Origin: Sphingomonas sp. IC081
GTDB lineage: Bacteria; Pseudomonadota; Alphaproteobacteria; Sphingomonadales; Sphingomonadaceae
Reading direction: 5' to 3'
Assembly (NCBI RefSeq): GCF_006874585.1
Contig: NZ_CP029761.1
Location: forward strand, 1,499,001-1,563,000
DNA length: 64,000 bases
Shown: positions 41,013 to 46,104 of the stretch, piece after piece
How the letters are laid out: each line of letters opens with the position of its first letter
How positions within the stretch are numbered: position 1 is the first letter of the stretch
The notes under the pieces: generated by a model
What the model was told of the DNA's origin: nothing
The model's database searches: none
The model's input: the letters and a program-made list of their open reading frames with translations, nothing else
Translations under genes and position numbers: made by a program

Positions 41013-42769
41013 GCCGCGGACCTTCGCTTGACCCGCCCCTGCTCGACGATGGCGATGAAGGCCTGGTTCATGTCGTCCACGCTTTCACCCCCGGCCTGCT
41101 CACGCACTTGCCCGGGAGTGCCAAGTGCCAGCATGCGGCCTGCGTCCTGGATGGCGATGCGGTCGCAATACTCGGCCTCTTCCATGAAATGGGTAGTGAC
41201 GATCACGGTCACCCCCGATTGCGACAGCGATGTGATCGTGCGCCAGAACGCCCGGCGCGCCAGCGGATCGATGCCGCTGGTCGGTTCGTCGAGGAACAGG
41301 ATCTCCGGCTCGTGCACGAGGCCCGCCGCCATGGCGAGGCGCTGCTTGTAGCCGTGGGGCAAGGCCCCGCTGGTCGCCGCACCGTCGAGCCCGAACTGAC
41401 CAAGAATGGCGTGGACCCGTTGCTTCAGCACACTCCCGCGCAGCCCGTAGGCACCGCCGAAAAATTCGAGGTTCTCGCGCACCGTGAGATTGGCATAGAG
41501 CGAGAATTTCTGCGCCACATAACCGATCTTGCGCCGCGCCTCGGAGCGCGCACGGCGCAAGTTCACGCCGGCGACTTCCAGCGTTCCGCTGGTCGCGGGA
41601 AGCAATCCGCACAGCATGCGGAAAGTCGTGGTCTTGCCCGCGCCATTGGGGCCGAGCAGCCCGAATATCTCGCCGCGCCGGACATCGAACGAGGTATTGG
41701 CGACAGCCGTGAAATCCCCGAAACGGCGCACCAGATCGCGCACATGAATGACCGCGTCGCCCGCAGCATCTTCCTTTGCCGCCAGACGCATTTCCGGGAT
41801 TGCCGCATCGCGCGGTGCATCCGGCTTCGCGGCGTCATGCTGGCGCAGCAGCAGCATGAAAGCGTCTTCCAGCTCCTCGCTGCGCGGCTCGGCCGGGCGC
41901 CCCTGGAGCAGATCCGCCATGCCGTCCACCGGGCAATCGGCCTGACGGATAAAACGGACGGCGCCGCCGCGCGGCACCGCATCCACCACCCGCTCGGGAG
42001 CATCGATCAGCCTGGCCTGCAGATCGCGCGCTGGCGTTCCGGGTTCGGGCGTGACGCGGTAGGTGAGGCCGGCCGCCCTCGCGGTAATCGCCTGGGGCCG
42101 ATCCTGGGCCAGCAGCCGTCCGTGATCCATGACCAGCACTTCGTCGCAGCGCCCCGCCTCGTCCATGTAGGCGGTACTGACGAGGACACTGAGGCCATCG
42201 GAGGCAATCAACTGCTCGATGATCTCCCAGAGATCGCGGCGCGACAGGGGGTCGACACCCACGCTCGGCTCGTCCAGCAGAAGCAGGTCGGGCACGCGCA
42301 CCAGCGTACAGGCAAGGCCCAGCTTCTGTTTCATGCCGCCCGACAGATTGCCCGCCGCCCGCGCCGTAAAGCGGGCCATGTCGGTCATTTCCAGCATGCG
42401 GCGGAAACGTTCGGCCCGCACCTCCTGCGGCACGCCGTGAAGATCTGCGTAAAGATCGAGATTTTCCTGAACGGAAAGATCTTCATAAAGACCAAATCTT
42501 TGCGGCATATAGCTGATACGGTTCTGAACTGCCTGCGGATCGCCAGCGACATCCGTACCCAGCACTTTGAGCGACCCGCCATCCGGCTTCAGCAGCCCGG
42601 TCAACATGCGCATCAGCGTGGTCTTGCCCGCACCGTCGGGCCCCACCAGGGCCGAAATCGTTCCTCGCTTCAGCGAGAACGTCAGATCGTGGACGGCATC
42701 GAAAAGTCGGCCGTCCGGCCCGGCGAAGACCTTGCGCAGGCCTTCGCAGACGACGGTGCAATCGCTCAC
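41009..42769 (-). CDS. ABC exporter ATPase with two nucleotide-binding domains
   Basis: 586 aa, GTG start overlapping the HlyD stop (GTGA). Two full ATP-binding cassettes are fused. Domain 1 has Walker A GPDGAGKTT, signature LSGGMKQK and Walker B LLLLDEPSVGVDP. Domain 2 has Walker A GPNGAGKTT, an altered signature (SGALPHGYKQRLAMAAG, lacking LSGGQ) and LFLDEPTSGIDP. The domain pair and the PDGAGKTT variant resemble YbhF and RbbA. It powers the two permeases. Altered second signature could mean one weak site, as seen in several exporters. Confidence 0.9.
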   Translation of the reverse strand: MSDCTVVCEGLRKVFAGPDGRLFDAVHDLTFSLKRGTISALVGPDGAGKTTLMRMLTGLLKPDGGSLKVLGTDVAGDPQAVQNRISYMPQRFGLYEDLSVQENLDLYADLHGVPQEVRAERFRRMLEMTDMARFTARAAGNLSGGMKQKLGLACTLVRVPDLLLLDEPSVGVDPLSRRDLWEIIEQLIASDGLSVLVSTAYMDEAGRCDEVLVMDHGRLLAQDRPQAITARAAGLTYRVTPEPGTPARDLQARLIDAPERVVDAVPRGGAVRFIRQADCPVDGMADLLQGRPAEPRSEELEDAFMLLLRQHDAAKPDAPRDAAIPEMRLAAKEDAAGDAVIHVRDLVRRFGDFTAVANTSFDVRRGEIFGLLGPNGAGKTTTFRMLCGLLPATSGTLEVAGVNLRRARSEARRKIGYVAQKFSLYANLTVRENLEFFGGAYGLRGSVLKQRVHAILGQFGLDGAATSGALPHGYKQRLAMAAGLVHEPEILFLDEPTSGIDPLARRAFWRTITSLSQSGVTVIVTTHFMEEAEYCDRIAIQDAGRMLALGTPGQVREQAGGESVDDMNQAFIAIVEQGRVKRRSAA

Positions 42770-43782
42770 CGTGTCGATCCGGCCTTCGCGGCGCCCGCGT
42801 CGATGCGTACCGTCACCGGCTGTCCGAGCCGAAGCCGGCCCTGCCGGTCGTCCACGCGCACCCGCACTTCGTAAACCAGCGCGGTACGCAACGATTCTGT
42901 CTCCACCGACTTGGGCGTGAATTCGGCAACCGAGGAAATGTACCCGATCGTTCCGGCAACCGGCTGGTCGGGGAAACTGTCACTGGTCACGGCAGCCCGC
43001 TGACCCATGCGGACCCGGCCAAGGTCGGCCTCCTCGACATAGACCCGGATCCACTTGGGGCTGGTGAGCGCCAGTTCGTATACCGGTTTCTGCGGTGCGG
43101 CCATGTCGCCAACTTCAAGCAGGCGCGAACGCACGACCGCATCCGATGGCGCCTTGAGCGCGCCCTGATCGATCTGGTGTGTCAGCAGCGCCAGCTGCGC
43201 CTCGGCGCTTTTCACCTGGGCTTCGGCGGCAGCGATGTCCTCCGATCGCGGGCCGCGCAGGGCCAGCCTCAGCGCCGCCTCCGCCTCCTTGAACTGGGCC
43301 TTGGCGACTTGCGAGGCATTGCGCGCCTGATCGAGTTCCTGAGCGCTCACCCCGCGCCCGTCGGTGCTTGCGGATACCGTTTGCGCCCGCTGGTAATCGT
43401 CCGCAGCGCGCCGGGCCGTAGCCTGCGCGGAGGCGAGCCGAGCCCGTGCCTGCGCGATGTCTTCAGGGCGCGTGCCGTTCCGCAGCTTGAGCAGGTTTTC
43501 GCGCATCGCCGCCACCTGGGCTTCGGCATTGCGCGCCTGCAGACCAAGGCTGACCGTGTCGAGCCGGGCGATGACCTGCCCGGCCCTGACGGCATCGCCC
43601 TCCTCCACCGCCATCTGGATGACGCGGCCCGACCCGTCAAAAGCCAGAGAAACCTGCCGAATATCGACATTGCCGTGCAGGATGATCGCATCCTGCTCCT
43701 TGCCGCTTCGGGTGAACCAGAAAACCAGCCCGGCCGCCAGCAGTATTGCCACCACCACTGCGGCGACCACGGATTTCTTCAT
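42766..43782 (-). CDS. HlyD/YbhG-type membrane-fusion protein
   Basis: 338 aa. One N-terminal membrane helix (about 5-22) is followed by a lipoyl-like half motif (GRVIQMAVEEGDAVRAGQVIARL), a long helical hairpin with many Ala/Gln/Arg residues (about 85-215), the second lipoyl half, and a beta-barrel. It bridges the inner-membrane ABC exporter and the NodT channel. It is the first gene of the operon and its upstream region has a palindromic site (43836-43848). No regulator gene is present next to it. Confidence 0.9.
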   Translation of the reverse strand: MKKSVVAAVVVAILLAAGLVFWFTRSGKEQDAIILHGNVDIRQVSLAFDGSGRVIQMAVEEGDAVRAGQVIARLDTVSLGLQARNAEAQVAAMRENLLKLRNGTRPEDIAQARARLASAQATARRAADDYQRAQTVSASTDGRGVSAQELDQARNASQVAKAQFKEAEAALRLALRGPRSEDIAAAEAQVKSAEAQLALLTHQIDQGALKAPSDAVVRSRLLEVGDMAAPQKPVYELALTSPKWIRVYVEEADLGRVRMGQRAAVTSDSFPDQPVAGTIGYISSVAEFTPKSVETESLRTALVYEVRVRVDDRQGRLRLGQPVTVRIDAGAAKAGSTR

Positions 43783-43890: not shown

Positions 43891-44160
43891 CTAGGCGGCG
43901 TGGACAGATTCCGCATTGCCACGGCTGGAGACAAAAGCCGTCAATTCAAGAAGGTGAGGCGCAGGAGTATGTCGATACTTCCAGCCGAGCCGACGCCGAA
44001 GGGACGGCTTTTGCCTCCAGCCCCGTAGGGGTTGCCCTGCAAGCTGCGCCAGCAGCGTTGCTCCGCCTTGAAAGAGGCCCGCTCTTCCTGCGGCTTCGCG
44101 CCTTGCTGGCGCAGCTTGCAGGGCAACCGTGGCAATGCGGAATGTGTCCACGCCGCCTAG
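43891..44160. mobile_element. 270-bp palindromic element with nested hairpins (MITE-like)
   Basis: The ends are 34-bp inverted repeats (43891-43924 and 44127-44160, one mismatch), beginning and ending with CTAG. Inside are two long hairpins: a 20-bp stem 43923-43942 with 44003-44022 (one mismatch) and a perfect 24-bp stem 44030-44053 with 44105-44128. One strand can thus fold into a three-way junction. There is no coding frame of note. It sits between the divergent starts of the exporter operon and the ABC-F gene. CTAG ends could be target duplications as made by IS5-type transposases, but this is not proven because CTAG is itself palindromic. Confidence 0.75.
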
Positions 44161-44223: not shown

Positions 44224-46104
44224 ATGCTGAATATTCGCGATATCACTGTCCGTCTCGGCGGGCGCACCATTCTCGACCAGGCTGCCGCCACCATTCCCAA
44301 GGACGGCAAGGTCGGCCTGATCGGCCGCAATGGCGCGGGCAAGTCCACGCTGGTGAAGGCGATCATCGGCCAGCTGGAACCCGATGGCGGCTCGGTGGAG
44401 ATGCCACGCCGGGCCCGTCTCGGCTATATCGCCCAAGAAGCCCCTAGCGGCACCAGAACCGCCCTTGAAGCGGTCCTGGACGCCGACACCGAGCGCAAGG
44501 ACCTGCTTGCCGAATCCGAAACCTGCGTCGACCCCCACCGCCTCGGCGACGTCCACGAACGCCTCCTCGCGATCGACGCCTATACCGGTGAGGCACGCGC
44601 CGCGCGCATCCTTGTCGGCCTCGGTTTCGACGAAGAGATGCAGAACCGTCCGCTCGACAGTTTCTCCGGCGGCTGGAAGATGCGCGTCGCCCTCGCCGGC
44701 CTGCTGTTCTCGCAGCCCGACGTGCTGCTGCTCGACGAACCTTCGAACCACCTCGACCTCGAAGCGACGCTGTGGCTGGAGAACTTCCTCCAGACTTACC
44801 CCAAGACGCTGATCGTCATCAGCCACGAACGCGATCTGCTCAACAACGTGGTCGATCACATCCTGCACCTCCAGCAGGGCAAGCTGACGCTTTATCCCGG
44901 CACGTACGACAGCTTCGAGCGTATCCGCGCCGAGCGCGCCGCGCAGGCGGCCGCAGCGCGCGCCAACCAGGATGCGCAGCGCAAGAAGCTGGCCGAATAC
45001 GTCGCCCGCAATTCCGCCCGCGCCTCGACCGCAAAGCAGGCGCAGTCGCGGGCCAAGATGCTGGCCAAGATGCAGCCGATCGCGGCCATGGCCGAGGATT
45101 CCTCGCTCAGCTTCGATTTCCCCAGCCCCGACGAACTGCGCCCGCCGCTGGTCACTCTGGACCTTGCCGCCGTCGGCTACGAGACCGACAAGCCGATCCT
45201 GCGCCGGTTGAACCTGCGCATCGACCCCGAGGACCGCATCGCCCTCCTCGGCCGCAACGGCAACGGCAAGACCACGCTGGCGCGCCTGCTGGCCCGTCAG
45301 CTGGAGCCGATGGAAGGTTCGCTGAGCTTCTCGCCCAAGATCCGCATCGGCTACTTCACGCAGTACCAGGTCGAGGAACTGCCCTCGGATTCGACCCCGC
45401 TGGAACTGATGACCCGCGCGATGGAAGGCAAGCCGCCGGTTGCCGTGCGCGGGCAGCTTGGCCGCTTCGGCTTTTCCGGCGACCGGGCGACGGCGCAGAT
45501 CTCCACGCTTTCGGGCGGTGAGCGCGCACGCCTTGCGCTGGCGCTGGTCACCCGCGATGCGCCGCACATGCTGATCCTCGACGAACCGACCAACCACCTC
45601 GACGTCGACGCGCGCGAGGCACTGGTGCAGGCGCTCAACCAGTTCGAGGGCGCGGTCATCCTCGTCAGCCACGACCGCCACATGGTCGAACTCGCGGCTG
45701 ACCGGCTGGTGCTGGTCGATCAGGGCACGGCGGCCAATTACGACGGTTCGATGGAGGACTACATCGACTTCGTGCTCGGCCGGAACCAGCCCAAGGGCGA
45801 TGGCAAGGCGCAGGCCGATGCCAAGCCCGCCCGCAAGAACGGCGCCGTCGCGCGCGAGGAACTGAAGGCCCTGCGCAAGAAGGTTTCCGAGACCGAGACG
45901 CGCATGAAGCGCATCCAGCAGCAGATCGAGGCGCTCGACGCCGCGCTGGCCGATCCCGCTTCGGTCAAGGGCGATCTCGCCAAGCTGGGCATCGGCGAGA
46001 TCGGCAAGCGCCGCACGCAGGCTGCCGAGGAACTCGAAGCCGCCGAACAGGGCTGGTTCGAGGCCAGCGAGGCCATGGACGAATACATGGGCGGCGGCGC
46101 ATGA
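44224..46104 (+). CDS. ABC-F family ATPase (YheS/Uup type)
   Basis: 626 aa. Two ATP-binding domains without membrane segments: Walker A GRNGAGKST and GRNGNGKTT, signatures FSGGW and LSGGE, Walker B LLLLDEPSNHLD and LILDEPTNHLD. The linker between them is charged (QRKKLAEYVARNSARASTAKQAQSRAKMLAKM), which in ABC-F proteins enters the ribosome P/E site. The C-terminal tail (about 535-620) is a coiled coil, like YheS. These factors resolve stalled ribosomes. It overlaps the GreA-like gene by ATGA. Antibiotic resistance is possible but nothing shows it. Confidence 0.92.
   Translation: MLNIRDITVRLGGRTILDQAAATIPKDGKVGLIGRNGAGKSTLVKAIIGQLEPDGGSVEMPRRARLGYIAQEAPSGTRTALEAVLDADTERKDLLAESETCVDPHRLGDVHERLLAIDAYTGEARAARILVGLGFDEEMQNRPLDSFSGGWKMRVALAGLLFSQPDVLLLDEPSNHLDLEATLWLENFLQTYPKTLIVISHERDLLNNVVDHILHLQQGKLTLYPGTYDSFERIRAERAAQAAAARANQDAQRKKLAEYVARNSARASTAKQAQSRAKMLAKMQPIAAMAEDSSLSFDFPSPDELRPPLVTLDLAAVGYETDKPILRRLNLRIDPEDRIALLGRNGNGKTTLARLLARQLEPMEGSLSFSPKIRIGYFTQYQVEELPSDSTPLELMTRAMEGKPPVAVRGQLGRFGFSGDRATAQISTLSGGERARLALALVTRDAPHMLILDEPTNHLDVDAREALVQALNQFEGAVILVSHDRHMVELAADRLVLVDQGTAANYDGSMEDYIDFVLGRNQPKGDGKAQADAKPARKNGAVAREELKALRKKVSETETRMKRIQQQIEALDAALADPASVKGDLAKLGIGEIGKRRTQAAEELEAAEQGWFEASEAMDEYMGGGA

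Follow-up and report, generated by a model that had tools for sequence, protein, structure and literature searches.

The definition of miniature inverted-repeat transposable elements (MITEs) usually rests on their ends, with whatever lies between these treated as filler; the inside is usually derived from the partner transposon and AT-richness is typical, although neither property is required. RUP of Streptococcus pneumoniae is a MITE with a TA duplication that is moved by IS630-Spn1, and the REP/BIME sequences are dispersed palindromes with a tetranucleotide at the foot that are moved by Y1 (RAYT) transposases, the REP/RAYT unit being a single short hairpin. Published accounts describe the Correia elements (NEMIS) of Neisseria as dispersed, gene-less, mobile sequences with inverted ends that lie near genes, yield transcripts cut by RNase III and can themselves invert (PMC10969869), list RUP with a length of 108 (PMC2267715), and include among the folding intergenic repeats of Alphaproteobacteria the Bru-RS elements of 103-105 bp (PMC2267715) as well as the RIME and A/B/C motifs of Rhizobiales and their kin (PMC2573895).

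The window analyzed here, a stretch of 64,000 nucleotides from Sphingomonas sp. IC081, contains a 270-bp element (Table 1) that we assign, with a probability of roughly 0.86, to a gene-less lineage of MITEs that is likely mobilized in trans by IS5-family transposases and that keeps its fold while its ends change. The MITE is a known kind of element, and the combination of a conserved inside with changed ends is a variant for which no match was found: in agreement with the original prediction, which had not recognized a described family, the open-licence literature yielded no description of such an element and no paper that joins Novosphingobium with miniature inverted-repeat transposable elements. 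Like the Correia elements, it is dispersed, gene-less and mobile, with inverted ends and a location near genes, but it has two long paralogous hairpins and a central one, a near-constant length, many end types and a different host group, and a simple sigma-70-type scan detected no promoter-like site in the window copy. It differs from RUP in its IS5-family partner, length of 270 bp and four-branched fold, and from REP/BIME in having long double ends, a TA duplication and a DDE partner in place of the REP/RAYT hallmarks. With Bru-RS, RIME and the A/B/C palindromes, it has in common that all are folding intergenic repeats of Alphaproteobacteria, a comparison made by description. The IS5-family transposons, its probable movers, resemble it in their ends and TA target, whereas the element lacks a transposase and its inside is not theirs.

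Table 1. Coordinates of the element and its neighbors in the window, and of the transposons with the same type of ends in other loci
Feature	Position	Strand	Size, basis and remarks
Whole element with flanking target bases	43891..44160	none	270 bp; inverted-repeat search, copies
Element proper, GG...CC	43894..44157	none	264 bp, if TA is the duplication; end table
Left TA copy of target duplication, within CTAG	43892..43893	none	sequence and end table
Right TA copy of target duplication, within CTAG	44158..44159	none	sequence and end table
Left terminal inverted repeat	43891..43927	+	first 23 bases match F1 IS left ends at 22/23
Right terminal inverted repeat	44124..44160	-	inverted-repeat search and IS end comparison
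Hairpin A	43923..44022	+	100 nt; conserved apical core ~43949-43996
Small central hairpin, CCCC-GTA-GGGG	44021..44031	none	fold and alignment
Hairpin B	44030..44128	-	99 nt; reverse-complement paralogue of hairpin A; covariance model match on the other strand
Left neighbor, HlyD-like exporter subunit ORF	42766..43782	-	identified by eye
Right neighbor, ABC-F ATPase ORF	44224..46104	+	identified by eye; kept in four relatives
IS5-type transposons with F1 ends	L155 2580-3802; L135 5581-6858; L150 5956-7210; L191 4848-6148; L199 3975-5252		

The bounds of the element given in the original prediction are exact. The predicted outer repeats of 34 bp and hairpins of 20 and 24 bp are present as well, but their arms are a few bases longer: the outer inverted repeats span 37 nt (95% identity), and the arms of hairpin A (43923-43947 and 43998-44022, 88% identity) and of hairpin B (44030-44054 and 44104-44128, 100% identity) span 25 nt each. 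The strong fold had been described as a three-way junction but comprises four branches, because the small CCCC/GGGG hairpin sits between the two large ones, which makes it a four-way junction. As previously noted, there is no gene inside, only overlapping mechanical ORFs of which none was judged gene-like by eye, and the element indeed lies between the exporter and ABC-F ORFs, at 108 bases from the former and 63 bases from the latter. Its G+C content is 63.3%, compared to 65.0% for the window, so that the AT-richness of MITEs is not observed. In hairpin A, AAGGTGAGG occurs close upstream of an ATG at 43969 that opens a 19-codon frame with a stop within the small hairpin (window 43951-44028 in all); this ATG is missing from several relatives, and the arrangement is probably due to chance.

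A blastn search of the 5.52 Mb genome of the organism (9 contigs; G000) detected five full copies at 97-100% identity, the window copy counted, besides two full copies at 78% and many partial ones. The end motif of this type, hereafter F1, occurs 39 times in the genome with at most one mismatch, compared to 0 occurrences of a reversed-pattern control. A sixth F1 copy (L007, G000:C1:2744545-2744921) is 377 bp long owing to an internal tandem duplication of 107 bp, and its site is empty in G154, a genome of the same species; an F1-like element (G000:C1:3873014-3876413) is split by ~3.1 kb into parts that match query bases 1-81 and 74-270 with an overlap of 8 bases, as if another transposon had inserted there and duplicated 8 bp.

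Copies with the same ends were found in 10 of the 98 genomes, and in 1 of the 27 genera, of the first sample of relatives, own genome included. An exact 31-mer had 0 matches in genome contigs, and a 22-base end pattern used in its place matched 99 stretches in named genomes, a figure that also covers truncated copies and the ends of IS. The 80 of these 99 matches that were listed come, as judged by eye, mostly from Novosphingobium and also from Sphingobium, Sphingomonas, Stakelama, Aurantiacibacter and Altererythrobacter; among the same listed matches, a few lie outside the order, in Mesorhizobium, Rhizobium, Beijerinckia and a Rhodospirillales MAG. The pattern is also present in two IMG/VR contigs, and the phage records searched contained no match. 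In an IMG/VR contig catalogued as viral (L213 13630-13762), an F1 end is followed by hairpin A. Among plasmids, the F1 query produced partial matches in three records, the L337 and F2 queries full-length relatives in some of six records each, and the L370 query none. The dispersal for which a BLASTN check had been proposed is thus borne out, with same-end copies spread in the organism's own genome, in Novosphingobium and in other Sphingomonadales.

Comparison with G154 reveals an exact, empty site of a sister copy: at the end of an argC-like gene, the element is present in our genome, and G154 has a continuous sequence of 204 bp in which CTAG stands once. At the window site, G154 carries the element too, and in four other relatives the flanks at this locus are too divergent for an empty site to be read. 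In yet another genome (L254, G047:C79:98204-98416), the otherwise empty argC site contains nine extra bases that look like both tips of the element fused, a possible excision footprint. At another stop-codon site, the F1 copy of our genome is replaced in G154 by a different 270-bp element with another type of ends (F2), at the same CTAG. The YTAR motif is found on both sides of 72 of the 84 extracted elements of 240-300 bp and is lacking on one or both sides of the other 12; because TA was part of the extraction pattern, which tolerated one mismatch, its constancy is in part a product of the search, and the outer bases were free. These are C or T to the left of TA and G or A to the right, in combinations that vary between copies. 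Because the outer bases vary, the target duplication is likely TA inside YTAR; CTAG does flank the window copy, as predicted, but its reading as a four-base target duplication was rejected given that its outer bases differ among copies. Of the 28 sites counted in the organism's own genome (element length 240 bp or more, both ends recognized), 14 coincide exactly with the stop of an ORF of 150 codons or longer, compared to 11 of the 49 YTAR sites in the window, a count on mechanical ORFs that is only suggestive of a preference for stop codons. The CTAG tetranucleotide itself is seen 14 times in the whole window, with 207 occurrences expected from base composition.

By these sequence features, that is, terminal inverted repeats, short length without a transposase, many dispersed copies, and TA duplication along with the empty site of a sister copy, the element is a MITE. 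Partner transposons with the same ends are present in other genomes, and a transposase search at E <= 1e-40 detected none in G000 or G154. Pairs of F1 ends located 1.2-1.3 kb apart enclose homologous transposase DNA in five loci (L155, L135, L150, L191 and L199; Table 1), and the ends and flanks of L210 are the same as those of L135. The transposase is encoded in two frames according to the listed ORFs of L155, L135, L191 and L150, with L199 being assigned by its ends. The Pfam models DUF4096 (PF13340) and DDE (DDE_Tnp_1) match L155, L135 and L191, the three that were scanned, and the NCBIfam IS5 model (NF033580) matches L155 and L135, identifying the partner as a member of the IS5 family; we take these two-frame transposons to belong to the IS427 group. 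In L155, the final codons of the transposase are inside the end repeat, and the stop is the TAG of the terminal CTAG. The F1 transposons have ~810 bp of transposase DNA in common with L155 (84-90%); the ~390-490 bp between the left end and the transposase contain different small ORFs, with no match to L155 in the others, as if passengers had been acquired.

The N-terminal half of the F1 transposase is encoded in 30 of the 194 genomes of the genus at E <= 1e-40 and, at the same threshold, in neither G000 nor G154; the best match of a related transposase query in the organism's own genome is 53% identical. A resident 840-bp IS (L216/L217) has ends that resemble those of a third type, F3, and both of its ORFs resemble the IS5 model, although the N-terminal one in L216, with a score of 107.1, falls just short of the cut-off of 110. 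None of the loci examined contains a partner IS for F2. The original prediction of a MITE moved by an IS5-type transposase is supported by the copies, the empty site, the TA flanks and the IS5-family transposons with the same ends, but no F1 transposase was detected in the organism's own genome at E <= 1e-40.

Were this an ordinary MITE produced by internal deletion of the partner IS, with meaningless filler inside, its short length and the 19-23 bp of ends it has in common with the IS would be accounted for, and bacterial MITEs are, according to PMC10969869, common and thought to be IS-derived. However, the element and the IS have only their ends in common (22-23 bases at the left end and 19-20 at the right end) and nothing inside; the hairpin covariance model introduced below matches none of L155, L135, L150, L191, L199, L216 and L217; blastn of the element against the IS likewise returns the ends only, with a match to hairpin B added in the composite L131; and the inside is spread more widely than any single end type. 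Thus, the inside is not derived from the partner, as it usually is in MITEs, and we consider an origin by internal deletion highly improbable. The composite itself (L131 2529-4583, Mesorhizobium) is a 2,055-bp unit between F1 ends that carries a transposase remnant at one end and, at the other, a half-MITE-like stretch that includes hairpin B; the ORFs in the middle are, by eye, TetR-like and hydrolase-like.

The F2 element of G154 aligns with the window element at a score of 77, compared to a maximum of 36 in 500 shuffles, and has a similar fold; the genome of Sphingomonas sp. IC081 contains 20 full-length F2 matches at 81-98% identity and two F3 elements with yet other ends. Between F2 and F3, hairpins A and B are 81% and 84% identical and the outer repeat 42%; between F1 and F2, the values are 61% for hairpin A (79% in its core), 39% for hairpin B and 33% for the outer repeat. 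With hairpin B at 39%, hairpin A alone is recognizable by sequence between F1 and F2. A covariance model of hairpin A was built from 25 sequences. In the organism's own genome, this model detects 35 hairpin-A loci, 33 of them at 66.3 bits or more and the other two at 52.1 and 43.7 bits. In six F1 copies it also picks up hairpin B, on the opposite strand and with 65.1 bits (E 7.4e-14), and A and B are therefore paralogues in inverted orientation; a pairwise shuffle of the two hairpin cores of one copy was not significant, with 158 of 2000 shuffles being as good. With our genome included, the model has matches in 35 of 246 genomes of the order, which represent 15 of its 71 genera, and in 6 of 289 genomes of the class.

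The ends are widely different at the 27 of 29 examined order-level loci where they are readable. In the class-level genomes, they include TTAGGTTGTATCGAC... and CTAGAGCGTTTTCAGGG... among others, and the TAGAGC... ends of some of these relatives seem to us to recall repeats of the RIME, Bru-RS or A/B/C type. The geometry, in contrast to the ends, is nearly fixed: 59 of the first 96 extracted elements are exactly 270 bp long and 75 are within 268-272 bp, and the two large hairpins are equal within 1 nt in 74 of the 82 elements of 262-296 bp. Among the 27 order- and class-level elements that were folded, a subset of the loci matched by the hairpin A model with automatic bounds (L333 is mis-bounded; L100 is the same place at 270 bp), 12 have branches of exactly 95, 11 and 96 nt, and the length of 19 lies within 268-272. 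The shape that recurs across end types consists of an outer stem of ~34 bp, two equal hairpins of ~95-100 nt and one small hairpin. At the class level, single-hairpin forms of ~160-175 bp occur too, and several matches lack readable ends. Shorter forms of this size are L363 (G668), L364 (G641), L120, L142, L037 and L109, with a single hairpin match in L120, L142, L363 and L364; G668 has one element with a single hairpin and one with two, and the ends of both are similar.

Different ends around a similar inside could have arisen without any exchange, if the ends had drifted along with their transposases from one ancestral end and the inside had changed more slowly. Several end positions (AGG, C15, A16, A18, C21 and C24) are nearly invariant across F1-F3, and slow divergence of the ends with the transposases can therefore explain part of the pattern. 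A tree of 86 insides, with the outer 34 bp removed (L333, L342, L354 and L356 were left out as mis-bounded or gappy), requires at least 16 changes of end type over 14 clusters, three above the least possible number of 13; starred branches force four changes of one end type and two of each of three others. This is a quick tree whose long branches make the deep part unsure, and the clusters, gapless at 70%, include one offset artefact (L347), leaving at most 13 end types; it supports repeated changes of ends weakly. Drift, however, does not fit the contrast between F2 and F3, which in one genome are 42% identical in the ends and 81-84% in the hairpins, or the pairs L336/L340 and L346/L350, where close insides are combined with different ends. 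Furthermore, L016 has an F1 left end joined to an F2 right end via the common hairpin A core, which on sequence grounds we regard as a trace of recombination. We accordingly find drift without exchange a serious but rather doubtful explanation, and return to the reading of an inside that is kept while ends change.

The predicted RNA fold of the element has a free energy of -197.6 kcal/mol, compared to -110.1 +/- 5.2 for 200 shuffles, none of which is as low, and the opposite strand reaches -191.9 kcal/mol compared to -110.1 in shuffles; the fold is far beyond chance. In the consensus of 65 aligned F1-F3 elements (64 of the 68 elements of 262-296 bp kept after removal of near-identical ones, with L043, L049, L053 and L130 omitted by hand, plus L009), 49 of 64 pairs show two-sided changes. 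Paired cells account for 97.8% of 4160, compared to 78.4% in shuffled alignments and 39.5-45.1% with slid partners, and the covariation score is 0.523, compared to 0.173 and 0.047-0.087, respectively; kinship inflates the shuffle test, and the slid control keeps kinship and favors a structure derived from the same rows. Two-sided changes are also seen in 53 of 91 pairs among 43 F1 elements alone and in 24 of 102 pairs among 20 F2 and F3 elements. The covariance folding of aligned copies that the original prediction had called for thus reveals massive compensatory change. Two copies (L154 3106-3375 and L012 1500-1768) carry the apex of hairpin B in the opposite orientation to the others, and these were excluded from the F1 folding set and the tree on account of the inverted loop.

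Four orthologous same-site pairs of resident copies differ by 14 substitutions, 8 of them at paired positions and 0 compensated, and a fifth pair, of F2 elements in duplicated surroundings (L274/L277), shows one two-sided change, in the small hairpin. Although the data are few, resident copies seem to decay, and the target of selection would therefore be the lineage as it moves, not a function for the host at a given site.

The two-sided changes might also come about without selection, if the arms were kept alike by template switching or inter-arm inversion in replication and the fold had no function. The inverted apex of hairpin B in L154 and L012 indicates that the arms do recombine, all changes in the four same-site pairs of resident copies are one-sided, and the outer stem has similar numbers of G.U and A.C mismatches (20 and 17 in F1, 8 and 7 in F2 and F3), with no strand preference. 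In hairpin A, by contrast, G.U outnumbers A.C (45 to 8 in F1 and 45 to 0 in F2 and F3), mostly from a few columns and in a structure that came from a program favoring G.U; in hairpin B, with 1x1 positions included, the counts are 22 and 59 in F1 and 7 and 2 in F2 and F3. Mismatches are also kept inside the cores: columns 75-92 form a G.U or U.G wobble in 47 of 65 elements, and the mirror position in hairpin B is A.C in 38 of 43 F1 elements, a pattern that, A and B being mirror copies, is consistent with each hairpin retaining the wobble in its own orientation. The G.U and A.C counts do not separate DNA from RNA. Homogenisation leaves unexplained these kept mismatches, as well as the similar length and equal arms across end types. 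Arm homogenisation is real and may explain part of the two-sided changes, but it does not explain the near-fixed geometry, and as a full account of the fold we judge it unlikely.

The strong fold on both strands, the massive covariation, and the proximity to both start codons (108 and 63 bases) could be taken to indicate that a structured RNA controls the exporter and ABC-F operons from a divergent promoter region, as the original prediction proposed as one option. This reading is hard to reconcile with the presence of the same sequence at many unrelated sites and with the surroundings of the ABC-F gene in relatives: the divergent pair is kept together with the element in G154, but it was not seen in four other relatives, in which a tblastn search with the first part of HlyD found no HlyD within ~1.5 kb of ABC-F. 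The divergent setting is, as far as these genomes indicate, local. In the G154 copy at the window site, all four changes are one-sided, three of them in paired positions, and none is compensated. No Rfam 15 family reaches its gathering score in the element (isrG scores 28.6, with a cut-off of 100), and the sigma-70-type scan of the window copy found neither a promoter-like nor a terminator-like site. Control of both neighbors by an RNA was accordingly rejected as the main reading and appears extremely improbable; where it now lies, the window copy is probably no more than a passenger.

The favored reading, a MITE lineage with a kept fold, can be put as a tentative mechanism. An IS5-family transposase would bind the ends of the element, acting in trans, and paste it into TA within YTAR, in many cases at a stop codon, and the lineage would survive by switching its ends to those of other IS5-type transposons, with the inside kept. 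The folded single strand would be selected because it aids the spread of the element, not for a service to the host, with lagging-strand DNA during excision as the first guess for its nature and RNA as the second. The sequence comparisons suggest that the element owes part of its spread to its own fold. We further advance, as a speculative extension on which we would place less than even odds, that the heritable unit is the fold: a two-fold symmetric, cross-shaped single strand, working alike from either DNA strand, that would have lasted throughout the order, and in patches through the class, by trading its ends for those of any IS5-type transposon available, and that would be active in transposition or in survival as RNA.

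What sets this family apart is that the inside, with its near-fixed length, paralogous hairpins and compensatory changes, is kept while the ends change. If this holds, two questions become open to experiment: can a non-autonomous element survive the loss of its transposases by switching to new partners, and does DDE transposition in bacteria involve a folded single strand? If, further, the fold is the heritable unit, the inside rather than the ends would define this mobile element. The hairpin A model also offers a means of annotating a repeat family with 35 loci in the genome of Sphingomonas sp. IC081 and representatives in 15 of the 71 genera of the order.
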